Shown one piece after another: positions 7,201 to 59,417 of a stretch of 64,000 nt of DNA. This DNA comes from a virus, in the IMG/VR virus record IMGVR_UViG_3300043775_001834, positions 1 through 64,000 of that record. One strand, 5' to 3'. Every line of letters begins with the position of its first letter. The stretch's first letter is position 1. The position numbers were made by a program, and so were the translations under genes. The notes under the pieces are model-generated. The model was given only the letters and a program-made list of their open reading frames with translations. It did no database searches and was not told the origin of the DNA.

Positions 7201-7203
7201 CCT

Positions 7204-12163: not shown

Positions 12164-12819
12164 AATTAACAACATACGAAGAATATCTAAATGAAAACAT
12201 AAATGAATTTGGCCCTTTAGCTGGTTCAGGTAATGTTCGAGCAGATGAACTAAATAACCTGCAACGAGAAGCTGCAAAGAAAAGTGAAAGAGGAGAAACT
12301 GTTTATATAGTAGGTGCTAAAAACGGATCTTATAAATTATCAAAATATTTCGAAAAGGGAAATACTTATGCAGCATATTATAACGGTATGCCGCAAGTAG
12401 TAGAAGGAATTTTAGAAAATGAAAATTTTTTAAATGAAGCTCTTAAAGACATTACGATAAGTGATACAGAAGCAGAAGAAATTTTTGACGAAATCAAGCG
12501 TCTTACTAAATTACATAAAGAAAAGGGATTTGTTTCCGGTGAAGTTTCCGTAGATGGATTCGCTAAATCTTCAGGAGCATTTGGATTAAATCCAGACGAT
12601 AAAAACCTTAAAATTGCTGGCATCTCTGCAACTACATTCGGAGTTTTTGCATGTATAACAACTCAAGCTAATATTGTAGTTTGTTATGTCACTTTAGGTT
12701 ACGATACGTTAAAGAAAAAATTAAAACTAGGAAGTTATTCTCTTACTTTTTATAGTGGTAGAGAATCTCATTTCAATCAAATAGCTAGACAATACAAAAA
12801 AACAATATACAACAAATAA
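12160..12819 (+). CDS. Capsid-targeting-tagged protein, unknown function
   Basis: The 219-residue protein begins MKLTTYEEYLNENINEFGP. An internal NENFLNEALKD lies near residue 90 and would be a second protease site, dividing the product into two parts. The second part has a predicted beta-rich region ending in a basic tail (SHFNQIARQYKKTIY). No active-site motif is seen. Confidence 0.65.
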   Translation: MKLTTYEEYLNENINEFGPLAGSGNVRADELNNLQREAAKKSERGETVYIVGAKNGSYKLSKYFEKGNTYAAYYNGMPQVVEGILENENFLNEALKDITISDTEAEEIFDEIKRLTKLHKEKGFVSGEVSVDGFAKSSGAFGLNPDDKNLKIAGISATTFGVFACITTQANIVVCYVTLGYDTLKKKLKLGSYSLTFYSGRESHFNQIARQYKKTIYNK

Positions 12820-12820
12820 T

Positions 12821-13390
12821 ATGAAACACATACCTACATACGAAGAATTCGTAAACGAATCAGTACTAAACGAAGGAAGAGTTAAAGCAGCTACATTACT
12901 TCAAGAAATAATAGACGGTAATACTTCTAGAGCAGAAGGTATTAAAATGTCTAAAGACTTAGCTGAACACTATCTGTATTGGTTGAGAACTTCTCCTTAC
13001 GGCAAGAAAAATACAGATTTGCCTCTATATATGCTAATCAAAGCTTCATTTAATTGGGGTATTGAAAGACAATTAGATAAAAAATTAAAAGTAGAGCTAG
13101 ATACATTGAAAACTACAATCAACAAACCAATGAATGAAGGTTTTAATGCAAGCTATTGGGAAGGTTATCATGAAAAATCTGCAAAAATTCCAAATCCAAC
13201 GGATATGCAAATTCAACAAGAAGTAGAAGCTTCGGTTGAAGAATGGAACGATAATAATGAAAACGGGAAAGAGAATGAAGTAACTCCTGCAGGTGAAAAG
13301 AAAGTTTTAGCTCTTGCAAAACAATTCGTTAAAGCAAAAAAATATATTTGCTCAGATATTATTGATGCAATGATAGCTCAAGAATCATAA
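12821..13390 (+). CDS. Capsid-targeting-tagged protein with tandem cleavage sites
   Basis: The 189-residue protein begins MKHIPTYEEFVNESVLNEGR, with two consecutive (V/L)NE sites, and has another at PMNEGFNASYWEG near residue 105. Residues 25-90 contain an aromatic helical segment (LAEHYLYWLRTSPYGKK). The C-terminal part is acidic, then Lys-rich. No family is recognised; it ends the block B cluster of tagged genes. Confidence 0.65.
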   Translation: MKHIPTYEEFVNESVLNEGRVKAATLLQEIIDGNTSRAEGIKMSKDLAEHYLYWLRTSPYGKKNTDLPLYMLIKASFNWGIERQLDKKLKVELDTLKTTINKPMNEGFNASYWEGYHEKSAKIPNPTDMQIQQEVEASVEEWNDNNENGKENEVTPAGEKKVLALAKQFVKAKKYICSDIIDAMIAQES

Positions 13391-23588: not shown

Positions 23589-24461
23589 ATGATTGGAGCA
23601 ACTGAATTTGAAAAGGTCTTCTATCTTTACACACTACAAAATCCTAAATATCTAAGAAACATTAGTGAAGCATTTTATGAAAATGACCAAATAGGTACAT
23701 TACATACAATTACTAAACAATTCTATGATAGATTTAATCAAGTTCCTTCACAAGAACAATTACAAATTGTAGCAAAGCAAGATAAATTTAAAGACGACGT
23801 TACAGAATCTATTATTAATTTAATATTTGATGAACCTATAGCTTCATACGATCAAGAATGGGTTGAAGAAACCTGTCAATCTTGGATTTTGTGGAAATCT
23901 TTAGATAAATCATTAATTGATACTTTAGAATATGTAAAAACAGTTAAAGTTAATCCAAACAATGTTAAGGAAATAATTCAAAAGGTTAAAACCTTGATTA
24001 ATGAGAGAAACAACATCACATTTAATCAAGACTTAGGTAAGAATTTCTTTGAAGCAGCTTCTCACATACCTGAAGCAAATTCAAAAATTACTACATGTCA
24101 TAATTGGATTGACCAATATACTGGTGGTTATCGTACAAAATCGCTTGTAATTTATGCAGGTGAACAAAACATTGGTAAATCTATATGGTTAGCTAATGAT
24201 GCAGTAAATTATGTTAAAGCCGGTTATGATGTTGCGGTAATTACTGCTGAAATGGCAGACATTGATTTTATTCATCGTATTGGTTCGAATTTACTTAATG
24301 TAAAAGTTTCTGAATATGAAAAATTATCAAAACAACCTAATTTCATTAAAGGCAGATTATCAAATTTAACGAATGGTGTGATTCCGCCAGGAAATCTTTT
24401 TGTTAAAGAATATCCAACTTCGCAAGCAACGGTTCCAGATATTGAAACTTACTTAAAGTAA
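23589..24461 (+). CDS. 41: Replicative DNA helicase gp41, N-terminal part, ending at an in-frame TAA
   Basis: The 290-residue product contains the DnaB-like N-terminal domain and the start of the RecA-like core with Walker A AGEQNIGKSIW (about 198-208) and ITAEMADIDFIHR. It ends ETYLK at a TAA (24459-24461). The same frame continues without interruption through LETVNGIKLKAIIIDYINIL (Walker B) to 24887, and together they make a normal 430-residue gp41. A single base change from AAA or CAA would create the TAA. It may be a recent nonsense mutation, a sequence error or read-through. Confidence 0.85.
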   Translation: MIGATEFEKVFYLYTLQNPKYLRNISEAFYENDQIGTLHTITKQFYDRFNQVPSQEQLQIVAKQDKFKDDVTESIINLIFDEPIASYDQEWVEETCQSWILWKSLDKSLIDTLEYVKTVKVNPNNVKEIIQKVKTLINERNNITFNQDLGKNFFEAASHIPEANSKITTCHNWIDQYTGGYRTKSLVIYAGEQNIGKSIWLANDAVNYVKAGYDVAVITAEMADIDFIHRIGSNLLNVKVSEYEKLSKQPNFIKGRLSNLTNGVIPPGNLFVKEYPTSQATVPDIETYLK

Positions 24462-24887
24462 TTAGAAACAGTTAATGGAATAAAATTAAAGGCGATTATT
24501 ATTGACTATATCAATATTCTTGCAAATTACAGAAATCCAAATACCGAGAATACCTACATGAAAATCAAACAAATTGCTGAAGATTTAAGAGCAATGGCTG
24601 TAAGAAATGATTGGATAGTTATATCAGCAACGCAAATCAATAGAGGCGGTTATGATTCAACGGAAATCTCTCTAGGAAATATTGCAGAATCAGCAGGCCT
24701 TTCTCATACTGCCGATATCATTTATGGTATCATTCAAGATTCATCGATGCACATTAGTAATGAATATTGGTTGAAGCTATTGAAAGTGAGAAACGGATCA
24801 GGTAAAAACAGTCGATGCAGGTACAATATAGATTATTCATATATGAGACTTCTAGAAACTACCGACATCATAAACACATCAATTTAA
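24462..24887 (+). pseudogene. 41: Replicative DNA helicase gp41, C-terminal part after an in-frame stop
   Basis: This is the same-frame continuation of the upstream helicase. It carries Walker B AIIIDYINIL, the SATQINRGGYDS segment with the conserved Gln (motif H3), and SAGLSHTADIIYGI and the Arg-containing LKVRNGSGKNSR region (motif H4/arginine finger). The first ATG at 24558 lies after Walker B, so independent initiation there would give an incomplete core. All expected motifs remain intact, which argues that the stop is recent, suppressed or an error. Confidence 0.75.
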
Positions 24888-29408: not shown

Positions 29409-30407
29409 ATGTCAAACATTAAATCATACGAGCAATTCGTAAATGAGAATCTATTCGGTCAATATTCATATTACGGAGCCGGTTCTTTATTTCCTATTGT
29501 TCAAAAACTAGCATCTGAAGGAAAAAATCCTGAACAGATATACCTTTTCTTGACTACAATAGGAGTTGATGAAGAGAGAAAAATAAGCGTACTTAAAAAA
29601 GTATTCTTAAACGAATCAATAGACGCTAATACATTAAGTGAAGCATCTAGAAGTAAATTCAAAGGAAAAACTGCACATGACCTTTATACTCAAATGAATG
29701 GAAAAACATTTGAAGTTTTTATTAAAAATGATTGGTATAGCGTAGATCCAGAAGAATTAAAAGGTGAAAAGGGAACTTCATTTACCGGATATACTAGAGA
29801 TGGATCAGATTATGGATTCGATGTTAAAGATATAGATTTTATTCAAGAATCTAAAGAAGTTAGCGAAGGTGGTCTTTATGAAGAAGACGATATCCTTAAA
29901 GCTGATACGAAAGATTTAGCAAAAGGAATTGCACCTGATAAAGCTAAAGCCGACGATGAAGTAAAAGATGCAATCGACAAATTAAAAAATGACGATAAAG
30001 AAAAGAAAGCTACAGAAGAAAAACCAGAGAGTGAAGTTCCTGATGAAACTGCAAAAATCGAAGCTTTAAAAGATGCTTTAAAGGATGCTCAGAAAATGGA
30101 AAAAATCAAAAAGATTCTTTCTGAATCTATGGGTTTTGATATGACTGGTCTTGAAGATGAAGTTCTAGAATCTGTTTTAGAATATCATAAAGTTCTTGAG
30201 AAATTATCTCAAACCGAAAGAGATAAATTGAAACCTACGGATTTTGTATTTCCTGATCGTAAATCCTGGCCAATACATGATGAGAAACATGCAAAAACTG
30301 CATTAGTTTGGGCTACATGGCCACAATATGCAGACTTGAAAAAACAAGTAGTTGCATCGGTTTTAAAAAGATATCCTAACCTTAAAGACGTAGGAGCTGC
30401 TAAATAA
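29409..30407 (+). CDS. Tagged prohead-core-type protein with a C-terminal head-protein domain
   Basis: The 332-residue protein begins MSNIKSYEQFVNENLFGQ. Further cleavage-like sites occur at VFLNES and LSEAS (60-80). A charged Lys/Asp/Glu-rich middle (about 175-235) resembles scaffold or core proteins. The C-terminal domain DFVFPDRKSWPIHDEKHAKT continuing to VLKRYPNL matches a small domain common in phage head-morphogenesis proteins (pattern P-x-K-(R/S)-x-(Y/W)-P-I-x-D-x-x-H-A). I infer a major internal core component. Confidence 0.65.
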   Translation: MSNIKSYEQFVNENLFGQYSYYGAGSLFPIVQKLASEGKNPEQIYLFLTTIGVDEERKISVLKKVFLNESIDANTLSEASRSKFKGKTAHDLYTQMNGKTFEVFIKNDWYSVDPEELKGEKGTSFTGYTRDGSDYGFDVKDIDFIQESKEVSEGGLYEEDDILKADTKDLAKGIAPDKAKADDEVKDAIDKLKNDDKEKKATEEKPESEVPDETAKIEALKDALKDAQKMEKIKKILSESMGFDMTGLEDEVLESVLEYHKVLEKLSQTERDKLKPTDFVFPDRKSWPIHDEKHAKTALVWATWPQYADLKKQVVASVLKRYPNLKDVGAAK

Positions 30408-30416
30408 TATAACGAT

Positions 30417-30749
30417 ATGAACACAATATTAAGTTTTAAAGAATTTATTAATGAAGCCGATGAAGTATCGGTTGATAAAATTTTAACATCTGCCGAAAAG
30501 AAAAAACTTAAAAACGCTTTTGAATCCGTTATAACCGGAGTAGATAAATTAACATTTAAAAAAGATGGTACTATCGTAGGTAAACGAGGATATTTTTACA
30601 GACATGGTCAATCACCTCAAAGTGTTGCGGATAAATTAAAAGGAGCTTTAAGCAGTCAAGGAATTGAAATACAAATTGTTGATTCATATGATGATTTTAA
30701 ACCTTGGCCTAAAGATAGTAACTTTGTAGTTGTATTTAAAATAATATAA
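30417..30749 (+). CDS. Small capsid-targeting-tagged protein
   Basis: The 110-residue protein begins MNTILSFKEFINEADEV, a strong tag with predicted cut after INE. The mature part is basic, with KKKLKNAF followed by a beta-like GTIVGKRGYFYRHGQSPQSV and a final strand SNFVVVFKII. No family is recognised. Confidence 0.65.
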   Translation: MNTILSFKEFINEADEVSVDKILTSAEKKKLKNAFESVITGVDKLTFKKDGTIVGKRGYFYRHGQSPQSVADKLKGALSSQGIEIQIVDSYDDFKPWPKDSNFVVVFKII

Positions 30750-30752
30750 AAC

Positions 30753-31430
30753 ATGAATAATTTACCTTCATATGAAGATTTCATCTTAGAGTCATTAATC
30801 CTTGAAGCTACTCAAAAAGACTTACAAAGAATTAACGATATCGTTACAAAATCAAAAGGCGATGAATCTAAAATGTTAATGTTAGCTAACACTATGTGTA
30901 AGTTAATTACTGATAAAAATAAAGCATTTGATAGAGGAGTTGCTGCCGATCAAATACTTGGATCTGGACATCCGGTAACAAAAGTATTTTTCGATAGAGC
31001 TGCTGGATTAGGAATGGATGTTGATAAATCAATGAATTCTGTTCATGTCTTACCCGGTTCAAAAAGACCTTCATCTGAACAATTCAAAACTTCTAGACAA
31101 TTTACTGGAGGTTATAGAGGTGGTGGTTGTGCTATTTTACCGTGTGGTAGTTTAAATCTTACTTCTGGTGAAAATAAATATTTCAACGTTAAAACTAACG
31201 GTTCTTCTACTATTGAAGTTTGGAAAACTAATGGTGATGAAAAATATAGAGCAGTAATCACAGCTGGTTCTAATCCATTATGGCAAATAGGAACTCAAGG
31301 ACATTTCAGTCACGATCAAACCGGAAGACCGTTATTTACTGGTACTATGGTAGATTACATTGAATCTGCACACATGGAAGCATTAATACCTCTTTATGGT
31401 AAATCTATTACATGTGCTGTGTATAAATAA
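30753..31430 (+). CDS. Capsid-targeting-tagged protein, unknown function
   Basis: The 225-residue protein begins MNNLPSYEDFILESLILEAT, with two alternative sites ILE-S and ILE-A. The middle has KAFDRGVAADQILGSGHPV and a Gly/Cys-rich FTGGYRGGGCAILPCGSLNL. The C-terminal part has a His-containing GTQGHFSHDQTGRPLFTG and ends ITCAVYK. The paired Cys and His residues could bind metal or form a catalytic site, but I recognise no family. Confidence 0.65.
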   Translation: MNNLPSYEDFILESLILEATQKDLQRINDIVTKSKGDESKMLMLANTMCKLITDKNKAFDRGVAADQILGSGHPVTKVFFDRAAGLGMDVDKSMNSVHVLPGSKRPSSEQFKTSRQFTGGYRGGGCAILPCGSLNLTSGENKYFNVKTNGSSTIEVWKTNGDEKYRAVITAGSNPLWQIGTQGHFSHDQTGRPLFTGTMVDYIESAHMEALIPLYGKSITCAVYK

Positions 31431-33137: not shown

Positions 33138-33359
33138 ATGAAACTATCCACATTTGATGAATGGTTAAATGAATCGAAATCAGATGAATTTGTAAATGCT
33201 ACACTAACATCTCCTTTTAAAATGATTAAAAAAGGAGATGTAGTTAAAGTAAATGCTTTACAATACACTAAGAGTGGAGATTCTGATAAAATAGAAATCA
33301 TTTTGCCTAATGGGAAATCTGAATTAATAGATAAAAAGTTTTTAGTAGTTAAATTCTAA
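33138..33359 (+). CDS. Small capsid-targeting-tagged protein
   Basis: The 73-residue protein begins MKLSTFDEWLNESKSDE, with Trp replacing the usual Phe/Tyr. The mature part is a small beta-type module (FKMIKKGDVVKVNALQYTKS, KIEIILPNGKSELI) resembling an SH3-like or KOW-like barrel. That resemblance is only by pattern. It immediately precedes the late sigma gene. Confidence 0.65.
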   Translation: MKLSTFDEWLNESKSDEFVNATLTSPFKMIKKGDVVKVNALQYTKSGDSDKIEIILPNGKSELIDKKFLVVKF

Positions 33360-33371
33360 AACCTCAAATCA

Positions 33372-33731
33372 ATGTCAATTTACGTAAAACCAAAAGAACT
33401 CTACGAGGAAATATGCATTTCCTTAAAACAAGAAAAATTAACCAAGAAGGCAGAAGAAATGCTTATCTTAATTGCATATCGAGCTAATACGAGATTAACG
33501 TATGAAGATCCGATGGACCGAGAAGATTGTATAGCTTTTGCCCTTTTGGATTTGTTTAAATACTGGAAATCATTTAAGCCAGAAAAAACTAAAAACGCAT
33601 TTTCCTATTTTACTCAAATAGCTAAAAATGGATATGCTAAAGGATGGAATAAATTACATCCAGGAAAATACAAAGGAACTATATCTCTAAGTGGAGGTAA
33701 TGGTGATTCCGAAGGTATTTATTCCGTTTAA
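33372..33731 (+). CDS. 55: Late-promoter sigma factor gp55
   Basis: The 119-residue protein aligns in pattern with T4 gp55. The KPKELYEEICISLKQE start resembles the gp55 N terminus. The central DREDCIAFALLDLFKYWKSF followed by FSYFTQIAKNGYAKGW matches the sigma region 2-like segment (EMIADGIEASIKGLHNF and YITQACFNAFVQRIKK in T4). The product should direct host RNA polymerase to GATATATAA-type late promoters. It is shorter than T4 gp55 and ends GDSEGIYSV, without an obvious clamp-binding tail. Confidence 0.75.
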   Translation: MSIYVKPKELYEEICISLKQEKLTKKAEEMLILIAYRANTRLTYEDPMDREDCIAFALLDLFKYWKSFKPEKTKNAFSYFTQIAKNGYAKGWNKLHPGKYKGTISLSGGNGDSEGIYSV

Positions 33732-33744
33732 AATAACAACCGCG

Positions 33745-34272
33745 ATGAATCGTCTTTTAAAATTTGCTGATTTTGTTAATGAGGCAGTTAGCTTAGCTAA
33801 ATTAAATCGAGTATATGCTATGACTCCGGAATGGTGGTCAGCTTGGAAGCTTGAAAATATAGAAAAGTACAATTTTGAACAGGATGCCTTTTCGAAAACT
33901 TTTAATGTATATGATGTAAATAAGAAATTAGTTTTTGTTTTTGATTATGCTAGAAGTAAAATATTTACTAACGAAACACCTTCTACTTTTATTCTTCATG
34001 ACGAATTAACTCAAGAAGAAATGAATAAAGTTAAGGATAAAGCAGAAAAAATACAAAATCCTGAAGCTTTAGATGCTCAAAAAGATTTAAAAAGGGAATT
34101 AGAAAAAAATCCACCTAAGAAAAAAGAAGGCAAAGAAGTTGAAGAAGCTGAAATGGTCGGTACCGGAACATTAAATCCTGTATCTGCTGCAGATTCAAAT
34201 CCTAAAGTTACTGGATATAGAAACACCACCGATTCTGCATCTGGAGGAAGTTACCCAACATATATTGGATAA
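33745..34272 (+). CDS. Capsid-targeting-tagged protein
   Basis: The ATG at 33745 is preferred to the in-frame ATG at 33691, because it gives MNRLLKFADFVNEAVSLAK, a clear tag, and avoids overlapping gp55. The 175-residue product continues with an aromatic segment (TPEWWSAWKLENIEKY), a Lys/Glu-rich middle (LEKNPPKKKEGKEVEEAE) and a Ser/Gly/Thr-rich end. No enzymatic motif is seen. Confidence 0.65.
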   Translation: MNRLLKFADFVNEAVSLAKLNRVYAMTPEWWSAWKLENIEKYNFEQDAFSKTFNVYDVNKKLVFVFDYARSKIFTNETPSTFILHDELTQEEMNKVKDKAEKIQNPEALDAQKDLKRELEKNPPKKKEGKEVEEAEMVGTGTLNPVSAADSNPKVTGYRNTTDSASGGSYPTYIG

Positions 34273-34278
34273 ATATAA
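34268..34278 (+). promoter_or_regulatory. Late-promoter-like GATAAATATAA
   Basis: This element overlaps the preceding stop and lies 26 bases before the ATG at 34304. It contains the ATAAATA core of the T4 late consensus. Confidence 0.45.
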
Positions 34279-34303
34279 AAAACAAAAACAATAATAAATT
34301 AAA

Positions 34304-34660
34304 ATGAAAAAATTATTATCATTTGACGAGTTCGTAAACGAACATTACAAAATTCAAGAAGCTACCGACGCTGATGGATTTGACCCACAAAATACTACCG
34401 GAGTAGATCCAACAGGACCAGCTTTAACTTCTGTTTCTGAATTACTTCCTGGTAAAGAATATGTTATCACTGTAGATGATACTGTTAATACTGATATGAT
34501 ATATCAAGGTGTAACTGATGGAGTTCACATTTTTAATGGTGAAGATAAAGCTAATGATATTCAGTATACTGATACTGAAATTGCTGATGTTATCGCTAAA
34601 GGTGGATTTGTACAAGTTTTAGAAGGTAATTCTTCTGAAAGTGTAGCTACTGAAGAGTAA
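34304..34660 (+). CDS. Capsid-targeting-tagged protein sharing a module with the 31458 protein
   Basis: The 118-residue protein begins MKKLLSFDEFVNEHYKIQEA. Residues 40-105 (SVSELLPGKEYVITV, MIYQGVTDGVHIFN, TDTEIADVIAKGGF) parallel the C-terminal module of the 554-residue protein at 31458-33122: same order, same GKEY and DG-x-x-IFN turns. The module is probably a small beta domain. Its presence on a tagged protein supports a shared role inside the head. Confidence 0.65.
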   Translation: MKKLLSFDEFVNEHYKIQEATDADGFDPQNTTGVDPTGPALTSVSELLPGKEYVITVDDTVNTDMIYQGVTDGVHIFNGEDKANDIQYTDTEIADVIAKGGFVQVLEGNSSESVATEE

Positions 34661-35932: not shown

Positions 35933-37546
35933 ATGCCAGGATTTGTAAATAGAGACGAAACCTCAAACGGTAAACCAACACCAGCTTCGAGAAACATCGT
36001 CAGTAAAGCACTTAAATCATTATCTTCCTTCGGGATGATGTATGATGATATGGTGCTGAAGAATTCTAAAGCTATCGGTATCAATGAAGACCAATATGGT
36101 TGGAGACTTGATCCGAGAAATGTTGCTGGAGGTGAATATGATGATTATGCACTTTTTGCTAATTTGTCAATGACCGACATCAATCTTCGTAAATCAATTT
36201 CCATCTTTGATAAATCATACCCTAAGAAAAGAGAAGACCTTAGAAAATTCGCTATCCAAGATGAGATAGAAGATATTCTTGATACTCTTTGTGATGAGTG
36301 TGTAGTTTATGACGACAAAAATTACTTTTGTATGCCATTATCTTTTGATGATGATACATTAGAACCTACAACATTAGAAGCAGTTAAAATCGCTTTAGAT
36401 ACTAATTTTAAAAGAATCTATCAATATTTTGGATTCAATAATGATATTGCCGCTTGGTCTTATTTTAGAAAATGGTTAGTTGATGGTTATCTTGCATTTG
36501 AGATAATCTATGACAAAGAACAATCTCGAATCATCGGATTCAAAGAACTTGATCCGATAAATCTTGAACCTGGAATTGACAAAGAAGGTAAGAAAATTTG
36601 GAAACAATTTAAAGGTATGCCAAATAAAGAGAGAGTTGTTTATGATTCTCAGGTTATTTACATCTCTTATGCTAACGTTAATACCGTAAATCGAGTTTCT
36701 TATGTTGAAAGACTTATTCGTTCTTTTAACTTACTTAGGATTATGGAACACTCAAGAGTTATTTGGGCTACCGTTAATGCTTCGTTTAAAACTAAGTTCG
36801 TAATTCCAGTTGGTGGTAAATCGAAAACTAGAGCAAAACAATCTCTTGGAGTTTTAATGCAAAACTACAGAGAGCAAATAGATTTTGATACTGAATCAGG
36901 CGAATTAAAAGTTAATGGTAAAGCAATGATGCCATTTAACAAAGAATATTGGTTACCATCAGGTGATGCTGGTGAACCTACAATTGAGACTATCGGAAAC
37001 GATGGTCCAGACCTTTCAGATACTGATGCTCTTAAATATTTCAGAGAGAAATTAATTAAAGTATCTAAAATTCCACTTTCTCGTTTTGATATGGAATCCC
37101 CACCTTCATGGGAAATGAATGCTGAGGGTATGACTAGAGATGAGATTAAATTTGGACGTTTTGTTACTCGTTTACGTTCAGTTTTTCAAGAAATACTTAC
37201 AAAACCACTTTGGATTCAAATGTGTTTGGACTTCCCTGAAATAAAGGAAGATGATGCATTTAAAGCCCAAATCGGGGTAAAATACAACACAATGAACATC
37301 TTTGAAGAGATGAAAGAAATCGAAATCTTACAGAAAAGATTAGATTTCGTAACTTCAATGAAAGATGGTCTTGTTGATACAGATGCAAACATGAATGAAA
37401 TAAAATACTTTGCATCGGAATTCTTAATTCAAAGATTCTTAGGTTTATCCAACGACGATTTACGTCTTAATAAGAAACTAAAAGGTATCGAAGATGTAGA
37501 AAGAAGAGAAGCTGCAAAAAAGGATGCCGAAGCAACTGGAATGTAA
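35933..37546 (+). CDS. 20: Portal protein gp20
   Basis: The 537-residue protein fits T4 gp20 in length and pattern. It has a wing domain with FNNDIAAWSYFRKWLVDGYL, AFEIIYDKEQSRIIGFKELD, PINLEPGIDKEGKKIWKQF and LLRIMEHSRVIWATVNAS. The stem/crown part reads YFREKLIKVSKIPLSRFD, followed by EGMTRDEIKFGRFVTRLR. Twelve copies form the head vertex through which the terminase packages DNA. It heads the portal-protease-capsid block. Confidence 0.9.
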   Translation: MPGFVNRDETSNGKPTPASRNIVSKALKSLSSFGMMYDDMVLKNSKAIGINEDQYGWRLDPRNVAGGEYDDYALFANLSMTDINLRKSISIFDKSYPKKREDLRKFAIQDEIEDILDTLCDECVVYDDKNYFCMPLSFDDDTLEPTTLEAVKIALDTNFKRIYQYFGFNNDIAAWSYFRKWLVDGYLAFEIIYDKEQSRIIGFKELDPINLEPGIDKEGKKIWKQFKGMPNKERVVYDSQVIYISYANVNTVNRVSYVERLIRSFNLLRIMEHSRVIWATVNASFKTKFVIPVGGKSKTRAKQSLGVLMQNYREQIDFDTESGELKVNGKAMMPFNKEYWLPSGDAGEPTIETIGNDGPDLSDTDALKYFREKLIKVSKIPLSRFDMESPPSWEMNAEGMTRDEIKFGRFVTRLRSVFQEILTKPLWIQMCLDFPEIKEDDAFKAQIGVKYNTMNIFEEMKEIEILQKRLDFVTSMKDGLVDTDANMNEIKYFASEFLIQRFLGLSNDDLRLNKKLKGIEDVERREAAKKDAEATGM

Positions 37547-37602: not shown

Positions 37603-39516
37603 ATGAGCAATAATAAATATCTACTTGTATTAGAAAGATCGGAAGGAAATCTTACATCTTCTAAGGATGGAGATAAATATGTGTTGGAAGGTGTTTTCAC
37701 CGAAATAGGCATTAGAAACAAGAATAATCGTATTTACGATGAAGCTGAGTTAATGCCACACATACAAGACTTACAAGAAAAACTTAAAGGTAATAAATTA
37801 CTTGGAGAACTTGACCACCCTAAATCTTTTGATATATCGTTAAAGAATGCTTCGCATATTATTGAAGACATTCAATACGATAAAGCTAGCAAAAAAGTTA
37901 CTGGTAGAATCAGATTACTTAATACTGATGCTGGAAAACAAGCAATGGCATTAGTAGATGCTGGTGTACCTCTTCATATTTCATCTAGAGCTGCCGGTGT
38001 TGTTGAATCTAATGGCCATGTTAAAATTAAAAAAATGTTTACTTATGATTTAGTTGCAGATCCTGGATTTGCTAATGCCGAATTAAAAAGAGTAAACGAA
38101 TCTTTTGGATTAGACAATGATTCATTGACTCAGATCTACGAAATAGAATCTGATTTGAGTGAATCTGATATGCCAGTTTTAATCTATCAACAAGAAGAAA
38201 CACCCCAAACCACAATAAACGAAACAAAAAACGACAAAATGGATCCTAAAAAATACATTACCGTTGAAGATTTTAACGAATATACTAAACATGTTAAAAA
38301 CGAAGTAGAAAATCTTAAAAAGTCTTTAACCGAATCATCAGCTAAAGATTCTTCATCTGTTAATGAAGGATTGATACGTTACACCGAAGAAACTGCAAAA
38401 AGAGTTAATCAAATTAATTCTTATGTTGAAAAACTAGCAGAATCAGTTGATGGTTTAATTTCTCATAATGATTATATCATTGAAAACCTTGAAAGAGTTA
38501 AAAACTATGCTGAATTAGTTGGTGAAAAATCTAATCAAGGAATTAACTACTCAGAAAAACTTTCTGAATCAGTTGACCACTTAATTGAGTATACTAAATT
38601 AGTTGCTGAAATGAGCGATAGAGGTATTGAATATACTAAAGTAGTTGCAGAAAAAGCAGATCAAGGAATTGAATTTAGTAAATATCTTGCTAACGAATCT
38701 AATTCACGTTGGACTTATCAACAACATATGAATGAACAATTAGATAATGTAATTTCTCATAATGATTATATTGTTGAAGGTACATCATCAATCATTGAAT
38801 ATACTGAATACTTAAAAGAAAATACTCAAAATCTTGCAGGTTACCTTAATCATATCGTTAAAGAAATTAATGAAGGTAAAGTTACTGGTTTAGAAAATGC
38901 TGAATCGATTGATGAAAACGCTATCGTATATTCCACTCCAAATAGGTCAATCTTAGCTAAGGTTGAAGGTAACGAAGAAGATGCATTCGAAAAATCTTTA
39001 ACTGACAAATTGAATACTATTTTAGAAAGCGCTAAATCAGTTAACGAATCAGTAGATGCTAACAAATTACACTTCTTAAATTTCCTATCAGAAAATAAAA
39101 GAAATCAATTTGAGTCATTAACTCCTGAGAAAAAAGACGAAGTTATTGCAGCTTTTGAAGGTAATAAATTTTATGGATCAGTTGATGCTGAAAGATTATA
39201 CGAATCAGTATTTATTGGATTTAAACCGGTTACAAATTGGTTAACTAATATTCCTGCTAAATATAAAGATTCTTGGAATGGTTTAAATGAATCACAAAAG
39301 AATGCTATTAAGGCTCAAGCTTCAGTAAAAGTTTTAGATAACCAATATAAAATCGATGATTTCTGGGCTACCAGAGATTTAAGATCTGTAAAAGTTGATG
39401 CTCCATTAAATGAAGGTGCTGCACCGGCAATTGTTAATGAGTCTGCAGAATATAAAACTCCAGCTAATTATATGGACACTGTACAGGCTGAATTAAGAAG
39501 AAGATTTAACAGATAA
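37603..39516 (+). CDS. 21: Prohead protease (gp21) fused to scaffold (gp22-like)
   Basis: Residues 1-175 are a gp21-family serine protease: GVFTEIGIRNKNNRIYDEAE, the catalytic-His segment KLLGELDHPKS, the catalytic-Ser segment PLHISSRAAGVV, then TYDLVADPGF. The remaining 460 residues are helical, acidic and repetitive. About 255-430 contains imperfect repeats such as EYTKLVAEMSDRG, EYTKVVAEKADQG and SHNDYIIEN/SHNDYIVEG. There are many NE-S/NE-G sites, and the end is basic (QAELRRRFNR). In T4 the protease (gp21) and scaffold (gp22) are separate genes. The protease should cleave tags and scaffold during maturation. Confidence 0.85.
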   Translation: MSNNKYLLVLERSEGNLTSSKDGDKYVLEGVFTEIGIRNKNNRIYDEAELMPHIQDLQEKLKGNKLLGELDHPKSFDISLKNASHIIEDIQYDKASKKVTGRIRLLNTDAGKQAMALVDAGVPLHISSRAAGVVESNGHVKIKKMFTYDLVADPGFANAELKRVNESFGLDNDSLTQIYEIESDLSESDMPVLIYQQEETPQTTINETKNDKMDPKKYITVEDFNEYTKHVKNEVENLKKSLTESSAKDSSSVNEGLIRYTEETAKRVNQINSYVEKLAESVDGLISHNDYIIENLERVKNYAELVGEKSNQGINYSEKLSESVDHLIEYTKLVAEMSDRGIEYTKVVAEKADQGIEFSKYLANESNSRWTYQQHMNEQLDNVISHNDYIVEGTSSIIEYTEYLKENTQNLAGYLNHIVKEINEGKVTGLENAESIDENAIVYSTPNRSILAKVEGNEEDAFEKSLTDKLNTILESAKSVNESVDANKLHFLNFLSENKRNQFESLTPEKKDEVIAAFEGNKFYGSVDAERLYESVFIGFKPVTNWLTNIPAKYKDSWNGLNESQKNAIKAQASVKVLDNQYKIDDFWATRDLRSVKVDAPLNEGAAPAIVNESAEYKTPANYMDTVQAELRRRFNR

Positions 39517-39685: not shown

Positions 39686-41308
39686 ATGTATTTAATTAAC
39701 GAACAAGAAATATTCGGTAAATGGGCTCCAATCATTGAGTCTACTACAGGAATTCAAGAGCGTTCTAGAGTAGAGTGGATGTCTAAATACTGTCATTACC
39801 ATGAATTGTATGAAAACAATAACTTAGCTCAATTAGGCGCAGTAAACGGTATGGGAGCTACAAGATTCCCTGACAGTCCTGGAAGTCAATCTGCTTTCGC
39901 AGACCAAACTACAGGTTCAGGTGATAAAGCTCACACACTTCTTCCATTAGCAATGCAAGTTGCTGCTCAAACTATCGGTCTTGACTTGGTACCAGTTGTA
40001 CCAATGCCTGGTCCAATGGGTGTATTAACATATTTAGACTTCGTATATGCTGGTGGTCAAACATCTTCTACTACAAATGCTCCATTGTTAATCAAAATAA
40101 ACTACGGTTCTACTGCAGTTCCTGCATTCGTAGTTGGTGGAACTTCTGCTGCTACTAATGGTGTTACTCTTGCTTATGTTGGAGCTTCACGTTTAGATGG
40201 TTATCCAATCTTCCACGTTAGAGGTACTCTTTCTGGTGCTACAATCCTTGCAACTTATGCTACTATCTTAGGTGCTTCTGGTATCTCTGGTGTAACTGGT
40301 GCTTCTACTGGATTAAACGTAGAATTAGTAAAAGCTTTAGAAGACCACATTACCGGTTTCTCAGGTACTGCTTTAACAAGCAATGATTATACAGGTTCTG
40401 ATATTAACGATCCTTACTCTAGAAGTTTAGGTGAGTCTACTATGGACAATGTAATGAACTTAAGTCTTTTCAACAAATCAGTTGAAGCTAAAACTTTCCA
40501 AGTTGCAGCTGCTGTTACTAGAGAGCAAGTTCAAGATTTGAAACAATTCGGAGTAGATGCTGTATCTCAAGTAGAATCAGTACTTATCAATGAATTGACT
40601 CAATCAATCAACAAAAACATCCTTTCTAGATTATTTGCTCTTGGAGAAACTAACCACAAAAATGTTGTTAATTCTCAAGGAATCAACTTCTTCTTGAACA
40701 TTGGTGCTACTTCAGTTGTTGTATCAGGTACATCTGCTAACACTCAAACTAACTTTGGTGCTTACATCCAAGATACTACTCTTAGAGCTGCAACTATTCT
40801 TGCTTCTGAGGTTACAAACTCAGCTTCTGAGAATCTTTCAACTCGTCAGAGAAAAATTATGTCTAAGATCCTTGCAATCGCTAACCTTATTGCAATTAGA
40901 GGTCGTAGAGGACCAGCTACTTTCATCGTTACAAACGGTCAAGTATGTTCTGCTCTTCAAGATATAGCTGGTTTCGTTCCTGCTCCTATGGCTAATACTA
41001 TTAACCAAATGAGTGGTTCACTTTACCCAATTGGAACTGTTGCAGGTCTTGCTATCTACAACGATCCTAACATGGCTTGGAACGATACTCGTTTCTTAGT
41101 TGGACGTAAAGGTGATGGTAACTCTCCAGGTTTAGTATTCATGCCTTACTTAATGGCTGAATCAGTACAAACAATTGCTGAAGGAACTATGGCTCCTAAA
41201 GTTGCTGTTAAATCAAGATACGCTTTAGTTGAAGCTGGTTTCCACCCAGAAACTATGTATATCACTTCAGGTGTATTTATGTCTAGCCTTCTTGGTTCTT
41301 TAGTATAA
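39686..41308 (+). CDS. 23: Major capsid protein gp23
   Basis: The 540-residue protein begins MYLINEQEIFGKWAPIIEST, like the propeptide of gp23 (LLGKWKPL in T4). It then has the likely start of the mature chain around AVNGMGATRFPDS. The HK97-fold parts include LLPLAMQVAAQTIGLDLVPV, EAKTFQVAAAVTREQVQDL and the C-terminal GMxAPKVAVKSRYALVEAGF-like end. A long leader, an upstream late element and a strong terminator fit very high late expression. The N-terminal propeptide should be removed by the protease encoded just upstream. Confidence 0.93.
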   Translation: MYLINEQEIFGKWAPIIESTTGIQERSRVEWMSKYCHYHELYENNNLAQLGAVNGMGATRFPDSPGSQSAFADQTTGSGDKAHTLLPLAMQVAAQTIGLDLVPVVPMPGPMGVLTYLDFVYAGGQTSSTTNAPLLIKINYGSTAVPAFVVGGTSAATNGVTLAYVGASRLDGYPIFHVRGTLSGATILATYATILGASGISGVTGASTGLNVELVKALEDHITGFSGTALTSNDYTGSDINDPYSRSLGESTMDNVMNLSLFNKSVEAKTFQVAAAVTREQVQDLKQFGVDAVSQVESVLINELTQSINKNILSRLFALGETNHKNVVNSQGINFFLNIGATSVVVSGTSANTQTNFGAYIQDTTLRAATILASEVTNSASENLSTRQRKIMSKILAIANLIAIRGRRGPATFIVTNGQVCSALQDIAGFVPAPMANTINQMSGSLYPIGTVAGLAIYNDPNMAWNDTRFLVGRKGDGNSPGLVFMPYLMAESVQTIAEGTMAPKVAVKSRYALVEAGFHPETMYITSGVFMSSLLGSLV

Positions 41309-41410: not shown

Positions 41411-41956
41411 ATGACCTTTATTCTACCTACAAATGTTCTCGGTATACAAAACGAGATGAAAAACTATAAACAATTATGTTTACAGTATGATTATACTCCA
41501 GCACAAAAAGAATATGAAGATATTGTTAGATTCATATTGTTATTTTCTGGAGACGGAATCAGCGAATCTATAATAAATGAAAATTCATCAACACTAGATT
41601 ATCTTTATGAGTCTTTTATAGAGGACCTAAACGAAGCTCATTCATCAACCGATGGAGAAGCTGAATGGGACACCGCAGCTGGAGCAGCAATTGGTACAGT
41701 TAAAAAGGCTGGTGCAATAGCAACTGCTGGTGCAGTAGCAGTAGGAGCTGGAGCAGTTTTAGCAGCTGCGAGTATTGGTTCTTGGATTTCTTATATGTTT
41801 AAGAAGGGTAAAGTTAAAAAGGCAGTAAATAAAGAATATGATGCCGCAGACACACAACTTAATGATTATGCAAAAATATATCAACTCAAATCAAAAAAAG
41901 CAGAGTTAGAAGGAAGAGAAGCTCCTAAAGGTGATTTTCCGGGATATCCAGGCTAA
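41411..41956 (+). CDS. Putative internal head protein with a Gly/Ala-rich membrane-like segment
   Basis: The 181-residue protein has no N-terminal tag, but LDYLYESFIEDLNEAHSS near residues 64-81 reads like an internal capsid-targeting/cleavage sequence. After it comes a long Ala/Gly-rich hydrophobic stretch (AIATAGAVAVGAGAVLAAAS, then WISYMF), then a basic helical end. Cleavage after LNE would release a mature form starting near residue 79 with a membrane-active-looking segment. This parallels the tagged glycine-zipper protein at 1495-1857. Confidence 0.55.
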   Translation: MTFILPTNVLGIQNEMKNYKQLCLQYDYTPAQKEYEDIVRFILLFSGDGISESIINENSSTLDYLYESFIEDLNEAHSSTDGEAEWDTAAGAAIGTVKKAGAIATAGAVAVGAGAVLAAASIGSWISYMFKKGKVKKAVNKEYDAADTQLNDYAKIYQLKSKKAELEGREAPKGDFPGYPG

Positions 41957-41966
41957 TATTATAAAT

Positions 41967-43304
41967 ATGAAAACTAATACTATATTTGAAAATCTTCTAC
42001 TTTCCATGTATGAGAAGGCTATTAACGAAAATGAAGAGGTAGATGCCATTACAAAAAAGATTACCGATCTTCGAGCTGAACTTGAAAAAATGAAAGGAGA
42101 TACCGGAGATTCTGCTACATCTAAAAGAGTAAATATCAATAGCGAAATAGATAAACTCGGTAAGGAAAAAGAAGAAGCAAAGAAAAATTCTGAAGATACA
42201 CCTGATGAGGAACCTGAAGAAGATAATAGCAAAGAAATAGAAGCTCAAAAGAAACATATTTCTGATTTAGAAGATAAAATCGAAACTACTAAAGAAAAGG
42301 CAAAAGATCCTAAAAGTCCTCTAAATAATCCTAAAGTTTTACAAAAAGCATTAGAACCCGAAGAAGCTAAATTAAGTGAACTTAAAAATAAATTAGCAGA
42401 TTTAGAAAAAACTACAAAGAAGCCCGAAACTAAAACCGGAACTGAAGTTGAACCGGAAAAGAAAGTTGAACCTGAAAAGAAACTTGAACCTGAAACTGAA
42501 GGTGAACCTGGAGAGAAAGAAGATGAAGGTGATGCAGAAATGAAAGCAAAAAATAAAGAGGCAATTGAGAAGTTAGATGCTCAAATTAAATCTTTAGAAA
42601 AGACTTATGATGATAAAAAGGAATCTACTACCGAGCTTATCAATGCAGCAAAAGAAACTACTGATAAATTAGCTTCTAGCGATATGTTAAAAACTCTAGT
42701 GTCTAAAACTCGTTTAGAAAATAAACTAAAATATCAGAAAAAGATTTTATCAATCGTTGAAGACGATAAAGCTAGAAAAGAATTGTCAGAAATTGTTAAA
42801 AAAGAAGAAGCTGCTTTATCAAAATTGAATACTGAAATCGAAGATGCTCAAAAGAAAGCCGACGAAAAAGGTAAAGACAATCCTGAATATCAAGAGGCAA
42901 AAGAAGCTGCTAAGAAAGCTGATCTTCCTGATTCAACTAAAGATACTGAAAAACGAGGTAATAAAGATATCGATTCTTCGGAAATTGAAGATAGAGACAA
43001 AGATGCAATGATACAATATAAGCTTAAAATTGCATTAGAAAAACAAAAGGGAATATCTACCGCTTGGCAGAAGAAGCAAGATGAAGTAGCAGAAACAGAA
43101 GACGAAGATAAAAAAGCTTCTCTTCAAAAAGCCGCTGACGCTATTGAAAAGAATTTAGATGCTATTAAAACTAGAATAGAAAATCTTGAAAACGGTATTG
43201 ATGAGGCGTCAGATACAGAAATTTGGACTATCATGGCAATGATAAATTTAGTTGAGCAACAAATTGAAAATTTCAGTAACGAATTCATTCCTTTGAATGG
43301 CTAA
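41967..43304 (+). CDS. Long coiled-coil, highly charged protein with divergent tag
   Basis: The ATG at 41967 is chosen over the in-frame 41931 because it follows the upstream stop and gives MKTNTIFENLLLSMYEKAIN followed by ENEE, a divergent tag. The 445-residue product is almost entirely Lys/Glu/Asp-rich coiled coil. A short Pro/Glu repeat near residues 150-185 reads EPEKKVEPEKKLEPET. It resembles scaffold, core or tape-like helical proteins. It ends eight bases into the next gene. Confidence 0.55.
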   Translation: MKTNTIFENLLLSMYEKAINENEEVDAITKKITDLRAELEKMKGDTGDSATSKRVNINSEIDKLGKEKEEAKKNSEDTPDEEPEEDNSKEIEAQKKHISDLEDKIETTKEKAKDPKSPLNNPKVLQKALEPEEAKLSELKNKLADLEKTTKKPETKTGTEVEPEKKVEPEKKLEPETEGEPGEKEDEGDAEMKAKNKEAIEKLDAQIKSLEKTYDDKKESTTELINAAKETTDKLASSDMLKTLVSKTRLENKLKYQKKILSIVEDDKARKELSEIVKKEEAALSKLNTEIEDAQKKADEKGKDNPEYQEAKEAAKKADLPDSTKDTEKRGNKDIDSSEIEDRDKDAMIQYKLKIALEKQKGISTAWQKKQDEVAETEDEDKKASLQKAADAIEKNLDAIKTRIENLENGIDEASDTEIWTIMAMINLVEQQIENFSNEFIPLNG

Positions 43305-43806
43305 TTATCATATAAAAAGACAGAACTTAGGTAAAACTCCTACTAAATATGGAATCGTACTTAAAGGACTTCCACCTAGGCATCAACGAATATTAAAGGA
43401 AAATCCAGTAATTAAGAAATATGCTGATGATGACCTTTTCATTAATGCCATATTTAGGATCGAAGATGGGAGAATAAGAGTATCTCATTTGAATCGGCCA
43501 TTTGTTCAACCAGGGTCAAAAGACATATCATCTTATTCATCCGTTAAAGACTCATATAAAGTATTTGATTGGAACTGTGCTTATTGCAATAAAGAAATTC
43601 AATCTCGAATAGACACATATGTTCCGAGTAATTTTACTTGTGAAAAATGTTTCAAATACTACCTTAAGGGTAATGAAAAAATTGACCAACGAGTTATTGA
43701 ATCTTCATTAGCTTTTACCGAAAAATGTAAGAGAATGATGATAGATAATCAGAAATCATTCATAAAATATATACGAAAAAATGAAAAACCGTCTCGCATA
43801 CTTTAA
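43297..43806 (+). CDS. Zinc-ribbon-type protein, unknown function
   Basis: The 169-residue protein has a basic N terminus (YHIKRQNLGKTPTKYG) and two CxxC pairs: NCAYCNKE near residue 92 and FTCEKCFKYY near residue 114. These form a probable zinc ribbon. The C terminus is basic and helical. It overlaps the start of the tagged ATP-grasp gene by 26 bases. A neck or head-vertex role is possible from its late-gene context, but no family is recognised. Confidence 0.5.
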   Translation: MANYHIKRQNLGKTPTKYGIVLKGLPPRHQRILKENPVIKKYADDDLFINAIFRIEDGRIRVSHLNRPFVQPGSKDISSYSSVKDSYKVFDWNCAYCNKEIQSRIDTYVPSNFTCEKCFKYYLKGNEKIDQRVIESSLAFTEKCKRMMIDNQKSFIKYIRKNEKPSRIL

Positions 43807-45277
43807 CGAATTTGTAATTAATGAGGCTGTAAAACCGGCACCAAAAAATCCTGTTAAAATTGTACTTCTTTCCAATATTAGTGAGGAATCATACACTGTT
43901 CCTGCAGTTGATAAAGAATGTAAAAAACGTGGAATCGAATTCCGCATCATTGATGTTAATACATGTTCATTGACTAAAAGCTCAGATGGAGATTATTTTA
44001 CTATCGTTGATAAAACCAAGAAACCTTTTAAAATAGATTCAGAAGATACTGCAATTTTAACTCGTAGAGGAATCGTTAGAAATACTTATACTCGAGATAT
44101 TGTATCTCAATTAGAAGATAATAATTTCTTTGTAGTAAACACTTTAAGTTCAGTTTTAGCTTGTGAAAACAAATACGTTACTTCAAAAATACTTATGGAT
44201 GCCGGTCTTCCGGTTCCTAAAATGGCAATGGTCGATGGAGAAGATTCCATTGAACCGGCAGTCGAACAAGTTGGTGGCAATTTTCCGGTAATCCTTAAAA
44301 TGCTTTCCGGTTCACAAGGAATTGGAGTTTCTATTATAGATTCATTAGCATCTCTTAAATCAGTATTACAAACTTTATGGAAAGTCGATCCAACCGTAGA
44401 AACTCTTATACAAGAAAAGATCGAATCAGAATATGATTTACGTATTCACGTTTTAACTAAGCGTTTCAATTCACCTAGACCGGAAGATACTGATTCGGTA
44501 CTTTTAGGTTATATGAGAAGAAACAAAGTTGATAAAGACTTTAGAACTAACTACTCATTAGGCGGTTCAGTTGAAAAAACCAAATTAACACCAGAACAAG
44601 AAAGAATTGCGATCGAATCGGCTAAGGCAGTAGGTTGTAATTGGTGTGGAGTTGATATTATTGTTGATGAGAAAACTGGTAAAAACTATGTACTAGAAGT
44701 TAATTCATCTCCAGGTACACAAGGATTAAAAAAGGCTACTGGTGTAGATGTTATTAAAGACATCATCGATTTTCTATCAGATAGACAAAATTGGATTCGT
44801 TCACGTAGAATTATTGGATTTAGAGAAGTAATTACAATTCCTGGAATTGGTGATATTGTTTCTAAGTTCGATACTGGTAATGGTTCACTTTCATGTTCAT
44901 TAACTTATGATAAAATGAAAATTAGTGAAGATGGCAAACAATGTAATTGGGAATTGAACGGTAAAAAATATGTGCATCAGATAATTGGAATTTCTAATGC
45001 AGAAGTTGGTAATGATATTGATGAAAGACCTATTATAGAAATGGATATCGCATTTGCTGGTAAAACTTACAAAGAAGTTCAAGTTTCATTAGTTAATAGA
45101 ATCGACAAATCTACTAAATTTTTAGTAAATAGGAAATTCATGGAAAGAATTGGTTGTTCAGTATCGCCATATAAAACTTTCGTAGTAACTTCATTTGATG
45201 GTGAATATCATCCAGGTGAAGCTAAAGGAAGTGCACATGCTGGAATAACATTTGAAAATAAAAAAACAAAGAAATAA
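43781..45277 (+). CDS. Tagged RimK-like ATP-grasp ligase fused to an ATP-dependent-zinc-protease-like domain
   Basis: The 498-residue protein begins MKNRLAYFNEFVINEAVK, a capsid-targeting-like tag. Residues 25-335 are an ATP-grasp enzyme of RimK type: NKYVTSKILMDAGLPVPKMA, FPVILKMLSGSQGIGVSI, LIQEKIESEYDLRIHVL, and the Mg-binding NWCGVDIIVDE/YVLEVNSSPGTQG. Residues 345-480 (IIGFREVITIPGIGDIVSKF, then DTGNGSLSCSL) match the domain that accompanies RimK in bacteria (COG4067, retropepsin-like DTG motif). RimK adds glutamates to ribosomal protein S6; the substrate here is unknown. The tag suggests packaging and delivery into the host, as for T4 Alt. Confidence 0.85.
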   Translation: MKNRLAYFNEFVINEAVKPAPKNPVKIVLLSNISEESYTVPAVDKECKKRGIEFRIIDVNTCSLTKSSDGDYFTIVDKTKKPFKIDSEDTAILTRRGIVRNTYTRDIVSQLEDNNFFVVNTLSSVLACENKYVTSKILMDAGLPVPKMAMVDGEDSIEPAVEQVGGNFPVILKMLSGSQGIGVSIIDSLASLKSVLQTLWKVDPTVETLIQEKIESEYDLRIHVLTKRFNSPRPEDTDSVLLGYMRRNKVDKDFRTNYSLGGSVEKTKLTPEQERIAIESAKAVGCNWCGVDIIVDEKTGKNYVLEVNSSPGTQGLKKATGVDVIKDIIDFLSDRQNWIRSRRIIGFREVITIPGIGDIVSKFDTGNGSLSCSLTYDKMKISEDGKQCNWELNGKKYVHQIIGISNAEVGNDIDERPIIEMDIAFAGKTYKEVQVSLVNRIDKSTKFLVNRKFMERIGCSVSPYKTFVVTSFDGEYHPGEAKGSAHAGITFENKKTKK

Positions 45278-45684
45278 TGAGTAAACTACCTACATATGAA
45301 GAATTCTTAAACGAATCTACATCATTAGCGGTTGGCGGAGAACATTGGAATGTGTATATTGCTAACAAAGACACAGAAGTTAAAAATATCAAAGGAACTA
45401 GAAAGGTAAAAGTATCAGTTGGAACTGTAATAAGTGCTGCTGGAGGTGGATATTGGGTAAACATCGATCGTAGTGTTGAAACTGGAATCGAGTCTCTTGA
45501 AGGCAACCCAGATTTTGATGTCCTTAACGATTCAACTTGGCCTAAAACTGTTGAACTAACTAAGGAAATAGAAAAATGGGCAAGAGATACTGATCGTCTT
45601 ATGCAAAGAGACCCTAAAAAGGCACAATCGGTTATCAATAATCGAAACCGAGTTATAGAAGACATTAAAAAATTATTAAAGTAA
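45277..45684 (+). CDS. Small capsid-targeting-tagged protein
   Basis: The 135-residue protein begins MSKLPTYEEFLNESTSLAVG, one of the best tag matches. The mature part has a beta-rich domain (HWNVYIANKDTEVKN, KVSVGTVISAAGGGYWVNID), then a basic helix ending KKLLK. It overlaps the ATP-grasp gene by one base, so the two are translationally coupled and may cooperate. Confidence 0.65.
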   Translation: MSKLPTYEEFLNESTSLAVGGEHWNVYIANKDTEVKNIKGTRKVKVSVGTVISAAGGGYWVNIDRSVETGIESLEGNPDFDVLNDSTWPKTVELTKEIEKWARDTDRLMQRDPKKAQSVINNRNRVIEDIKKLLK

Positions 45685-45685
45685 T

Positions 45686-45913
45686 ATGGAACACTTACCT
45701 ACATTCAATGAATTCGTAAACGAAAAAGCTGAGAACTATATGACGATAGAAAATCTTAAAACTATCAAAAGAAATGTAGAAATTCTTTTAGCTATGGATC
45801 CCATTAAAATAGACGAAATCTTAAAGAATGGGCATGATTGGGCAGAAGACCACATTTCAGTAGCAAACGAAAACTTAGACCAAGTAACAAAATTCTTTAC
45901 TAACGAACAATAA
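45686..45913 (+). CDS. Small capsid-targeting-tagged protein
   Basis: The 75-residue protein begins MEHLPTFNEFVNEKAENY. The rest is a short helical acidic module (KRNVEILLAMDPIKIDEILK) without a known family. It is the last gene before a strong terminator and the switch to early-type promoters. Confidence 0.65.
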   Translation: MEHLPTFNEFVNEKAENYMTIENLKTIKRNVEILLAMDPIKIDEILKNGHDWAEDHISVANENLDQVTKFFTNEQ

Positions 45914-58581: not shown

Positions 58582-58857
58582 ATGAAACATATACTAACAT
58601 TCGAAGAATTCTTAAACGAATCAACGATAAAAGAAAGCGCAGAAGCATTCAACATATCTACGATAAAAATAAAAGATGTTGTAGAATTAACAAATACTAG
58701 GACTGGTGATGTAGGACAATACACGGTAAAGAAAATACATGGTGGTTCAAGTAATATCAAAGAGATTGAATTATTGAACCGTAGTAAACAACCTCTAATT
58801 TTGTATTATAGTAAAGAACGTGGCCTACAAAACTTTAAAGGAGATACTTACAAATAA
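58582..58857 (+). CDS. Small capsid-targeting-tagged protein
   Basis: The 91-residue protein begins MKHILTFEEFLNESTIKES, almost the ideal tag. The mature part is a small beta domain (KIKDVVELTNTRTGDVGQYT, IKEIELLNRSKQPLILYYS) resembling an SH3-like fold. Its first 42 nucleotides are closely similar to those of the next gene, showing recent duplication or exchange of the tag-coding segment. Confidence 0.65.
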   Translation: MKHILTFEEFLNESTIKESAEAFNISTIKIKDVVELTNTRTGDVGQYTVKKIHGGSSNIKEIELLNRSKQPLILYYSKERGLQNFKGDTYK

Positions 58858-58868
58858 AAGAAATAATC

Positions 58869-59417
58869 ATGAAACATTTACTAACATTTGGTGAGTTCTT
58901 AAATGAAGCTAAATCTATCTCTGATTTATCTTCTAGAGATGAACAGCCTATGATTAAAGGAATTGCTGAAATTATTAATCGAGTAAAAGATCCTGTAAAT
59001 AAAAGAGAAATGGTAGATGCATCAATCGAAGATTTTAAGAGAGAAGGAATTAACTTTGATTATGAAGAATTTAGAGATATTTGCAACGAAGAATTAATAA
59101 ATGAAGCAACTGATATTAAATTTGACGCTAAAGAATTTTTATCTGATTTAGAATCGAAAAACATAATAGATACAGGTGGGTATTTGTCATCAACTGGCAA
59201 CGGAGCTCGAGGAAAAAATAAATTATTCATTACTTCGTCTAAATATCAAGACTATGATGATTTCAATGCCATTATAAAAAATACATATAAAACAGTAGGT
59301 TCTACTTCTATGTCATCTGACGTATATACAAATGGAAAAATTCATTTTTTCTTTTATCCTACTAGAGGAAATGGAAATTATGAAATAGTAATTAGGAGAA
59401 AAAATTACAAAAGATAA
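58869..59417 (+). CDS. Capsid-targeting-tagged protein with a second internal site
   Basis: The 182-residue protein begins MKHLLTFGEFLNEAKSIS. A second cleavage-like sequence, NEELINEATDIKFD, lies near residues 72-85, so it may yield two mature pieces. The C-terminal part has Gly/Asn-rich loops (GGYLSSTGNGARGKNKLF) and ends with a basic strand EIVIRRKNYKR. No known family. Confidence 0.65.
   Translation: MKHLLTFGEFLNEAKSISDLSSRDEQPMIKGIAEIINRVKDPVNKREMVDASIEDFKREGINFDYEEFRDICNEELINEATDIKFDAKEFLSDLESKNIIDTGGYLSSTGNGARGKNKLFITSSKYQDYDDFNAIIKNTYKTVGSTSMSSDVYTNGKIHFFFYPTRGNGNYEIVIRRKNYKR

Follow-up and report, generated by a model that had tools for sequence, protein, structure and literature searches.

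The question raised by this locus is what a T4-like phage does with a RimK-type amino-acid ligase that is fused to a protease-like domain and that begins with a putative head-packaging tag. The window, i.e., the whole stretch of 64,000 nucleotides that was analysed, belongs to a 77.6-kb virus record of a large, T4-like freshwater phage. The fusion is encoded on the + strand by an ORF of 498 aa (43781-45277), for which the ATG at 43781 is the sole start that covers the tag; an in-frame stop lies six codons upstream, the next in-frame start is found at 43970, and the stop codon ends at 45277. The protein consists of a predicted capsid targeting sequence (CTS; residues 1-16, 43781-43828), a RimK-family ATP-grasp ligase domain (residues 26-335, 43856-44785) and an aspartic protease domain of the retropepsin-like RimB/RloA family (residues about 340-470, 44798-45190). 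On the same strand, it is preceded by the genes for the portal gp20 (35933-37546; Pfam Portal_T4 1.6e-72), a gp21-type prohead serine protease of the S77 family that is predicted to cut the tag (37603-39516; Pfam S77 1.8e-12) and the major capsid protein gp23 (39686-41308; Pfam Gp23 8.1e-36), which shares 57% identity with its counterpart in an uncultured phage of 462 kb; its identity to gp23 of the Prevotella Lak phages is about 36%. A further + strand gene between gp23 and RimK-RimB (43297-43806) overlaps the latter by 26 bases and is conserved beside it in most of the close relatives. We consider it rather probable that this RimK-RimB protein is delivered into the head by its CTS, cut by the gp21-type protease and injected, and that it modifies a host protein, the likeliest being S6 or another translation-linked protein.

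The internal proteins IPI, IPII and IPIII and the protein Alt of T4 are CTS-targeted or head-packaged, processed by gp21 and injected. In the window, the tag pattern (aromatic-x-x-aromatic-aliphatic-(x)-E near the start) was found in 17 of 85 ORFs, with about 1.5 expected from its internal frequency (binomial 1.7e-13). A matrix that was built from 14 other tags of the window, with the RimK tag held out, was used to scan the 256 ORFs of T4 and placed IPII and IPIII, the proteins whose N-termini are the experimentally defined CTS, together at the top (14.0, with 7.7 for the next ORF). The held-out RimK tag (MKNRLAYFNEFVINEA) scored 16.6, with control maxima of 14.0 at internal methionines of the window and 4.5 inside the RimK-RimB homologues. 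The matrix is an incomplete CTS detector; T4 IPI reached only 4.7, Alt was not among the matches listed and one internal methionine of T4 scored 15.2. In T4 IPIII, targeting depends on residues 4 and 7 and cutting on residues 8 and 10, and gp21 cleaves after L/I-X-E (PMC9026906). In the phage tag, F8 and F11, an aromatic pair three residues apart, stand in place of T4 residues 4 and 7, and the predicted cut falls after E15 in I13-N14-E15-A16; all 17 aligned homologues have E15, followed by A or S at position 16. The tag that had been noticed in the first-pass annotation was thereby borne out as one of the T4 type.

The tag is also retained among relatives. It scored above the internal maximum of 4.5 in 11 of the 13 distinct freshwater-type homologues, the weaker ones being L019 (4.3) and L023 (2.7). 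It was kept in L022, L026, L028 and L030, in which the 6 kb of flanking sequence fetched to either side gave no match to gp23 or gp21; in L022 and L030, the protease gene lies tens of kilobases off on the same contig. Readable tags were also present in gut and marine relatives (e.g., MKTFNQFLES in L049 and MEHFKSFITEE in L046), several of them with marginal scores, and no tag was detected by the matrix in L042 and L043. The gp21-type protease of the window has 637 aa, with the S77 domain confined to the first quarter; its counterparts in relatives have 607-655 aa, compared to 213 codons in T4 gene 21, and the long C-terminal extension may be a fused scaffold.

The downstream tagged gene that was described earlier as coupled to RimK-RimB is indeed present (45277-45684, + strand; tag MSKLPTYEEFLNES), overlaps the RimK-RimB stop in TAATG and is 80-82% conserved in the relatives L006-L008. 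It is followed by a second tagged gene (45686-45913, + strand; tag MEHLPTFNEFVNEK, matrix score 29.3), which is conserved in L006-L010 and L020. In total, about 14 further ORFs of the window have the same strong CTS-like N-terminus (within 11569-13390, 29409-31430, 33138-34660, 45277-45913 and 58582-59417). Most of these gave no match or no useful domain in Pfam and PHROGs, and by their N-termini they are candidate injected proteins. Elsewhere in the window, an ORF at 8037-8981 encodes a helicase C-terminal domain, in front of which lies a motif resembling the C-terminal end of an intein (weak match to Pfam Intein_splicing), and the ORF at 7238-8047 matches a TnsA-like endonuclease; a split intein may interrupt a helicase in the region 6208-8981. 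A DnaB-type replicative helicase occupies two ORFs (23589-24461 and 24558-24887, within 23589-24887) and is perhaps split by an inserted element or a frameshift. Matches to the T4-type late promoter TATAAATA were uninformative (10 vs. 14 expected), and a defence-system library gave no match.

A homologue with virion evidence was found in the Yersinia phage YerA41. By tblastn, YerA41_066 has both domains with 33% identity to the window protein, and its GenBank annotation is structural protein. In the YerA41 report, g112, a ‘Ribosomal protein modification protein’, is marked as detected by LC-MS/MS in purified particles and closely follows g109 and g110, the ribonucleotide reductase genes (PMC7354516). 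Because genes 063 and 064 are the ribonucleotide reductase genes, g112 corresponds to YerA41_066 by gene order. The paper gives a virion list of 63 proteins, replication enzymes among them (PMC7354516), so that carry-over into the list is possible, and it places expression of the homologue in the middle period, not with the late head genes (PMC7354516). The N-terminus of YerA41_066 is atypical and does not match the tag matrix, and no common tag was seen among the YerA41 structural proteins in the first 50 kb. Four genes past the RimK-RimB homologue, the annotation of YerA41 has a mono-ADP-ribosylating toxin (L002:8689-9063). Taken as a prediction from sequence, head packaging of RimK-RimB is well supported because of the T4-like tag, the encoded protease, the retention of the tag in relatives and the virion report for YerA41.

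The ligase domain matched PF08443 (Pfam RimK; 5.3e-34, 117.9 bits vs. a cut-off of 21) and the RimK family profile TIGR00768 (161.3 bits, above the cut-off of 143.4). It stayed below the cut-off of 331 for the S6-specific RimK equivalog profile NF007764 (91.5 bits), and the LysX, MptN and CofF profiles also matched it. The first-pass annotation had called the ATP-grasp domain complete and named its catalytic residues as a check; all six tested ATP/Mg residues are present, with K100, K141, E178, D248, E260 and N262 of E. coli RimK corresponding to K131, K173, E212, D292, E306 and N308, and they are invariant in 17 homologues. Among the residues of P. aeruginosa RimK that are reported to contact poly-glutamate (PMC10092738), R64, R189 and N262 have R95, R221 and N308 as their equivalents in the phage protein, and the acceptor contacts S7 and R8 appear not to be retained, so that the acceptor of the phage ligase may differ. 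The AlphaFold2 model (mean pLDDT 78, 15 sequences; residues 1-21 of low confidence) matched the fold of P. syringae RimK with a target TM of 0.89.

The C-terminal domain had been described as a DTG-containing domain like the bacterial partner of RimK and, at the same time, as zinc-protease-like. The former description agrees with our results: D364-T365-G366 is invariant in 17 homologues, and the domain matched RloA2 (9g59; 6.2e-11), RloA (9g58) and 2pma by profile and bacterial RimB by hhalign (96.7%). In Foldseek, RloA2 9g59 was the best match to its fold (target TM 0.73-0.76), followed more weakly by HIV protease. PF05618 scored 14.2 against the single phage sequence, under the cut-off of 27, and matched 13 of 14 members at E<1 (best 6.7e-8). 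The zinc-protease reading was rejected since both profile and fold point to the retropepsin-like class, the Pfam name Zn_protease being an old label; structure prediction of both domains, which the first-pass annotation had proposed as a check, gave a RimK fold and an RloA2-type fold. Both RimB and RloA are aspartic enzymes of the retropepsin-like type and act by cleaving poly-glutamate tails (PMC11957791, PMC12239564). Bacterial RimB shortens the glutamate tails of S6 and stimulates RimK (PMC11957791), including its synthesis of free poly-glutamate (PMC11957791). The basic residues with which RloA holds poly-glutamate (K46, R114 and R137) correspond to K362, R416 and R440 in the phage protein and are kept in nearly all of the 17 homologues. 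The alanine after DTG is absent, Asn367 being found in 17 of 17 homologues, and the glycine of the second motif of RimB/RloA is replaced by Asn450; judged from sequence, both changes weaken the claim of protease activity. Both domains are under strong purifying selection, with a dN/dS of 0.03-0.05 vs. the closest relatives (0.05 in the protease domain).

In the phylogenetic tree, the phage RimK-RimB proteins and the tagged relatives L005 and L053, which have the RimK domain only, formed one clade (99/97) that was separate from both bacterial RimK/RimBK and cyanophage RimK. Relatives of the RimK gene were found on IMG/VR contigs of up to 434 kb. For some members of the clade, the source is a genome bin with a bacterial or archaeal label; at the level of the bin, a T4-type portal gene was also present in 6 of the 11 tested, so that phage contigs have probably been binned with the cellular ones. 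The bacterial hybrids L121-L124 have RimB before RimK, and the phage protein has RimK before RimB; recent descent from bacterial RimBK is supported by neither the domain order nor the tree. A ligase-first order as a trait of phages only was also rejected, since L125 from the bacterial bin SZUA-486 has an ATP-grasp ligase, divergent in sequence, followed by a RimB-like domain with DTGA. In the cyanophages L040 and L037, an untagged RimK lies near gp23 (S-RIM32) or gp17 (S-RIM8).

What we infer for this phage, namely packaging, cleavage, injection, catalytic activity and substrate, can be set out as a sequence of steps. The tag would bind the prohead core through F8 and F11 and bring RimK-RimB inside. 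The gp21-type protease would then cleave after E15, and the tag-less enzyme would stay in the head during DNA packaging and enter the host along with the DNA. There, the ATP-grasp domain would ligate glutamate to the C-terminus of a protein or make poly-glutamate, and the RimB-like domain would trim the glutamate chains, stimulate the ligase or do both. A single protein would thus set the length of the tail ahead of any translation of phage genes. S6 is a plausible substrate, and a leading guess only, because the S6 equivalog profile was not reached and the one bacterial RimBK hybrid that has been assayed added no glutamate to S6 (PMC11957791).

The same two observations favour a second reading, in which the enzyme is packaged and injected and its target is not S6 but another host protein, linked to transcription or defence, or free poly-glutamate that drains the glutamate pool. 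It is quite possible, without being the reading that we prefer, and it also agrees with the stimulation of free poly-glutamate synthesis by RimB and with the existence of RimK-family ligases for other substrates, the profiles of which match the phage domain. Nothing specific speaks against it; the residues for the terminal glutamate, R221 and N308, are kept, which is consistent with ligation on several acceptors. The RimB-like domain could, moreover, be a regulatory pseudo-protease that steers the ligase and does not cut. DTG-N in place of DTG-A and Asn450 in place of a conserved glycine fit such a role, as do the known function of RimB as a regulator of RimK (PMC11957791) and the retention of the RimK domain alone in L005 and L053. 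We regard this as unlikely, however, given that the 17 homologues show little or no variation at D364, T365, G366 and the three poly-glutamate contacts and that the dN/dS of the domain is 0.05.

Two other readings dispense with an injected effector. RimK-RimB might act inside the prohead during assembly, where it would add glutamate to head or scaffold proteins or trim it from them, as could be suggested by its location, which in this phage and its close relatives is the head module, beside a Glu-rich coiled ORF (41931-43304); the RimK of cyanophage S-RIM32, which belongs to an unrelated clade, likewise adjoins gp23. Other relatives keep the tag even though the gene is far from the head module, ATP supply in a closed prohead seems doubtful, and the YerA41 homologue is expressed in the middle period and not together with the late head genes (PMC7354516), all of which makes this improbable. 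It is very improbable that the tag is no packaging signal at all and that RimK-RimB is an ordinary auxiliary gene that acts only in the producing cell. Untagged RimK proteins of a single domain do occur in cyanophages, and the YerA41 homologue lacks a good tag, but the tag matrix recovers proven internal proteins of T4, numerous unrelated ORFs begin with the tag, and a gp21-type protease is encoded along with it.

Both CTS delivery and RimK-RimB fusion are known, and no description of their combination, a virion-carried RimK-RimB, was found in the literature searched, most subscription journals being outside its scope. Alt-type ADP-ribosylation is the textbook case of a phage-injected enzyme. 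Injected phage enzymes of known chemistry are few, and a CTS-tagged RimK-RimB would add a second chemistry, possibly directed at the ribosome. According to a broader proposal, large T4-like phages from freshwater, marine and gut habitats inject both a writer and an eraser of glutamylation as one ready-made protein and thereby re-tune host ribosomes, through the length of the S6 tail, ahead of the first translation of a phage message; this is tentative and, on balance, doubtful, and, if true, it would make the protein a virion-delivered, translation-directed counterpart of T4 Alt. A row of the YerA41 virion table becomes a testable idea in a culturable phage. Moreover, a CTS proves to be recognisable in the sequences of large phages that are uncultured, and about 15 to 20 candidate injected proteins would be encoded in this window.

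Compared with known systems, RimK-RimB resembles T4 IPI, IPII, IPIII and Alt in its N-terminal tag with an aromatic pair and an I-x-E cut site and in the gp21-type protease of the genome, and it shares with Alt an enzyme as cargo. Its tag, however, is one residue longer than the T4 CTS (V-I-N-E-A), and the cargo, a glutamate ligase-protease, is related to none of the T4 internal proteins. The YerA41 protein 066 (g112) has both domains at 33% identity and, by gene order, is reported in virions, but its N-terminus is without the canonical tag. Pseudomonas RimK/RimB and E. coli RimK have the ATP-grasp catalytic residues, fold, DTG and poly-glutamate contacts in common with the phage protein, whereas identity is about 25% and the bacterial RimK and RimB are separate proteins. 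The bacterial RimBK hybrid (Desulfotalea psychrophila, PMC11957791; L121-L124) also combines both domains in one polypeptide of about 480-516 aa, but with RimB first, in a separate clade and untagged. RloA (9g58, 9g59) is similar in fold, DTG motif and poly-glutamate contact residues; it is, however, secreted and stand-alone, and its DTG is followed by alanine instead of the asparagine of the phage. Finally, cyanophage RimK (‘ribosomal protein S6 glutaminyl transferase’, phrog_2599) is likewise a RimK-type ATP-grasp protein of T4-like phages, but a single-domain one with an untagged start that belongs to a separate clade.
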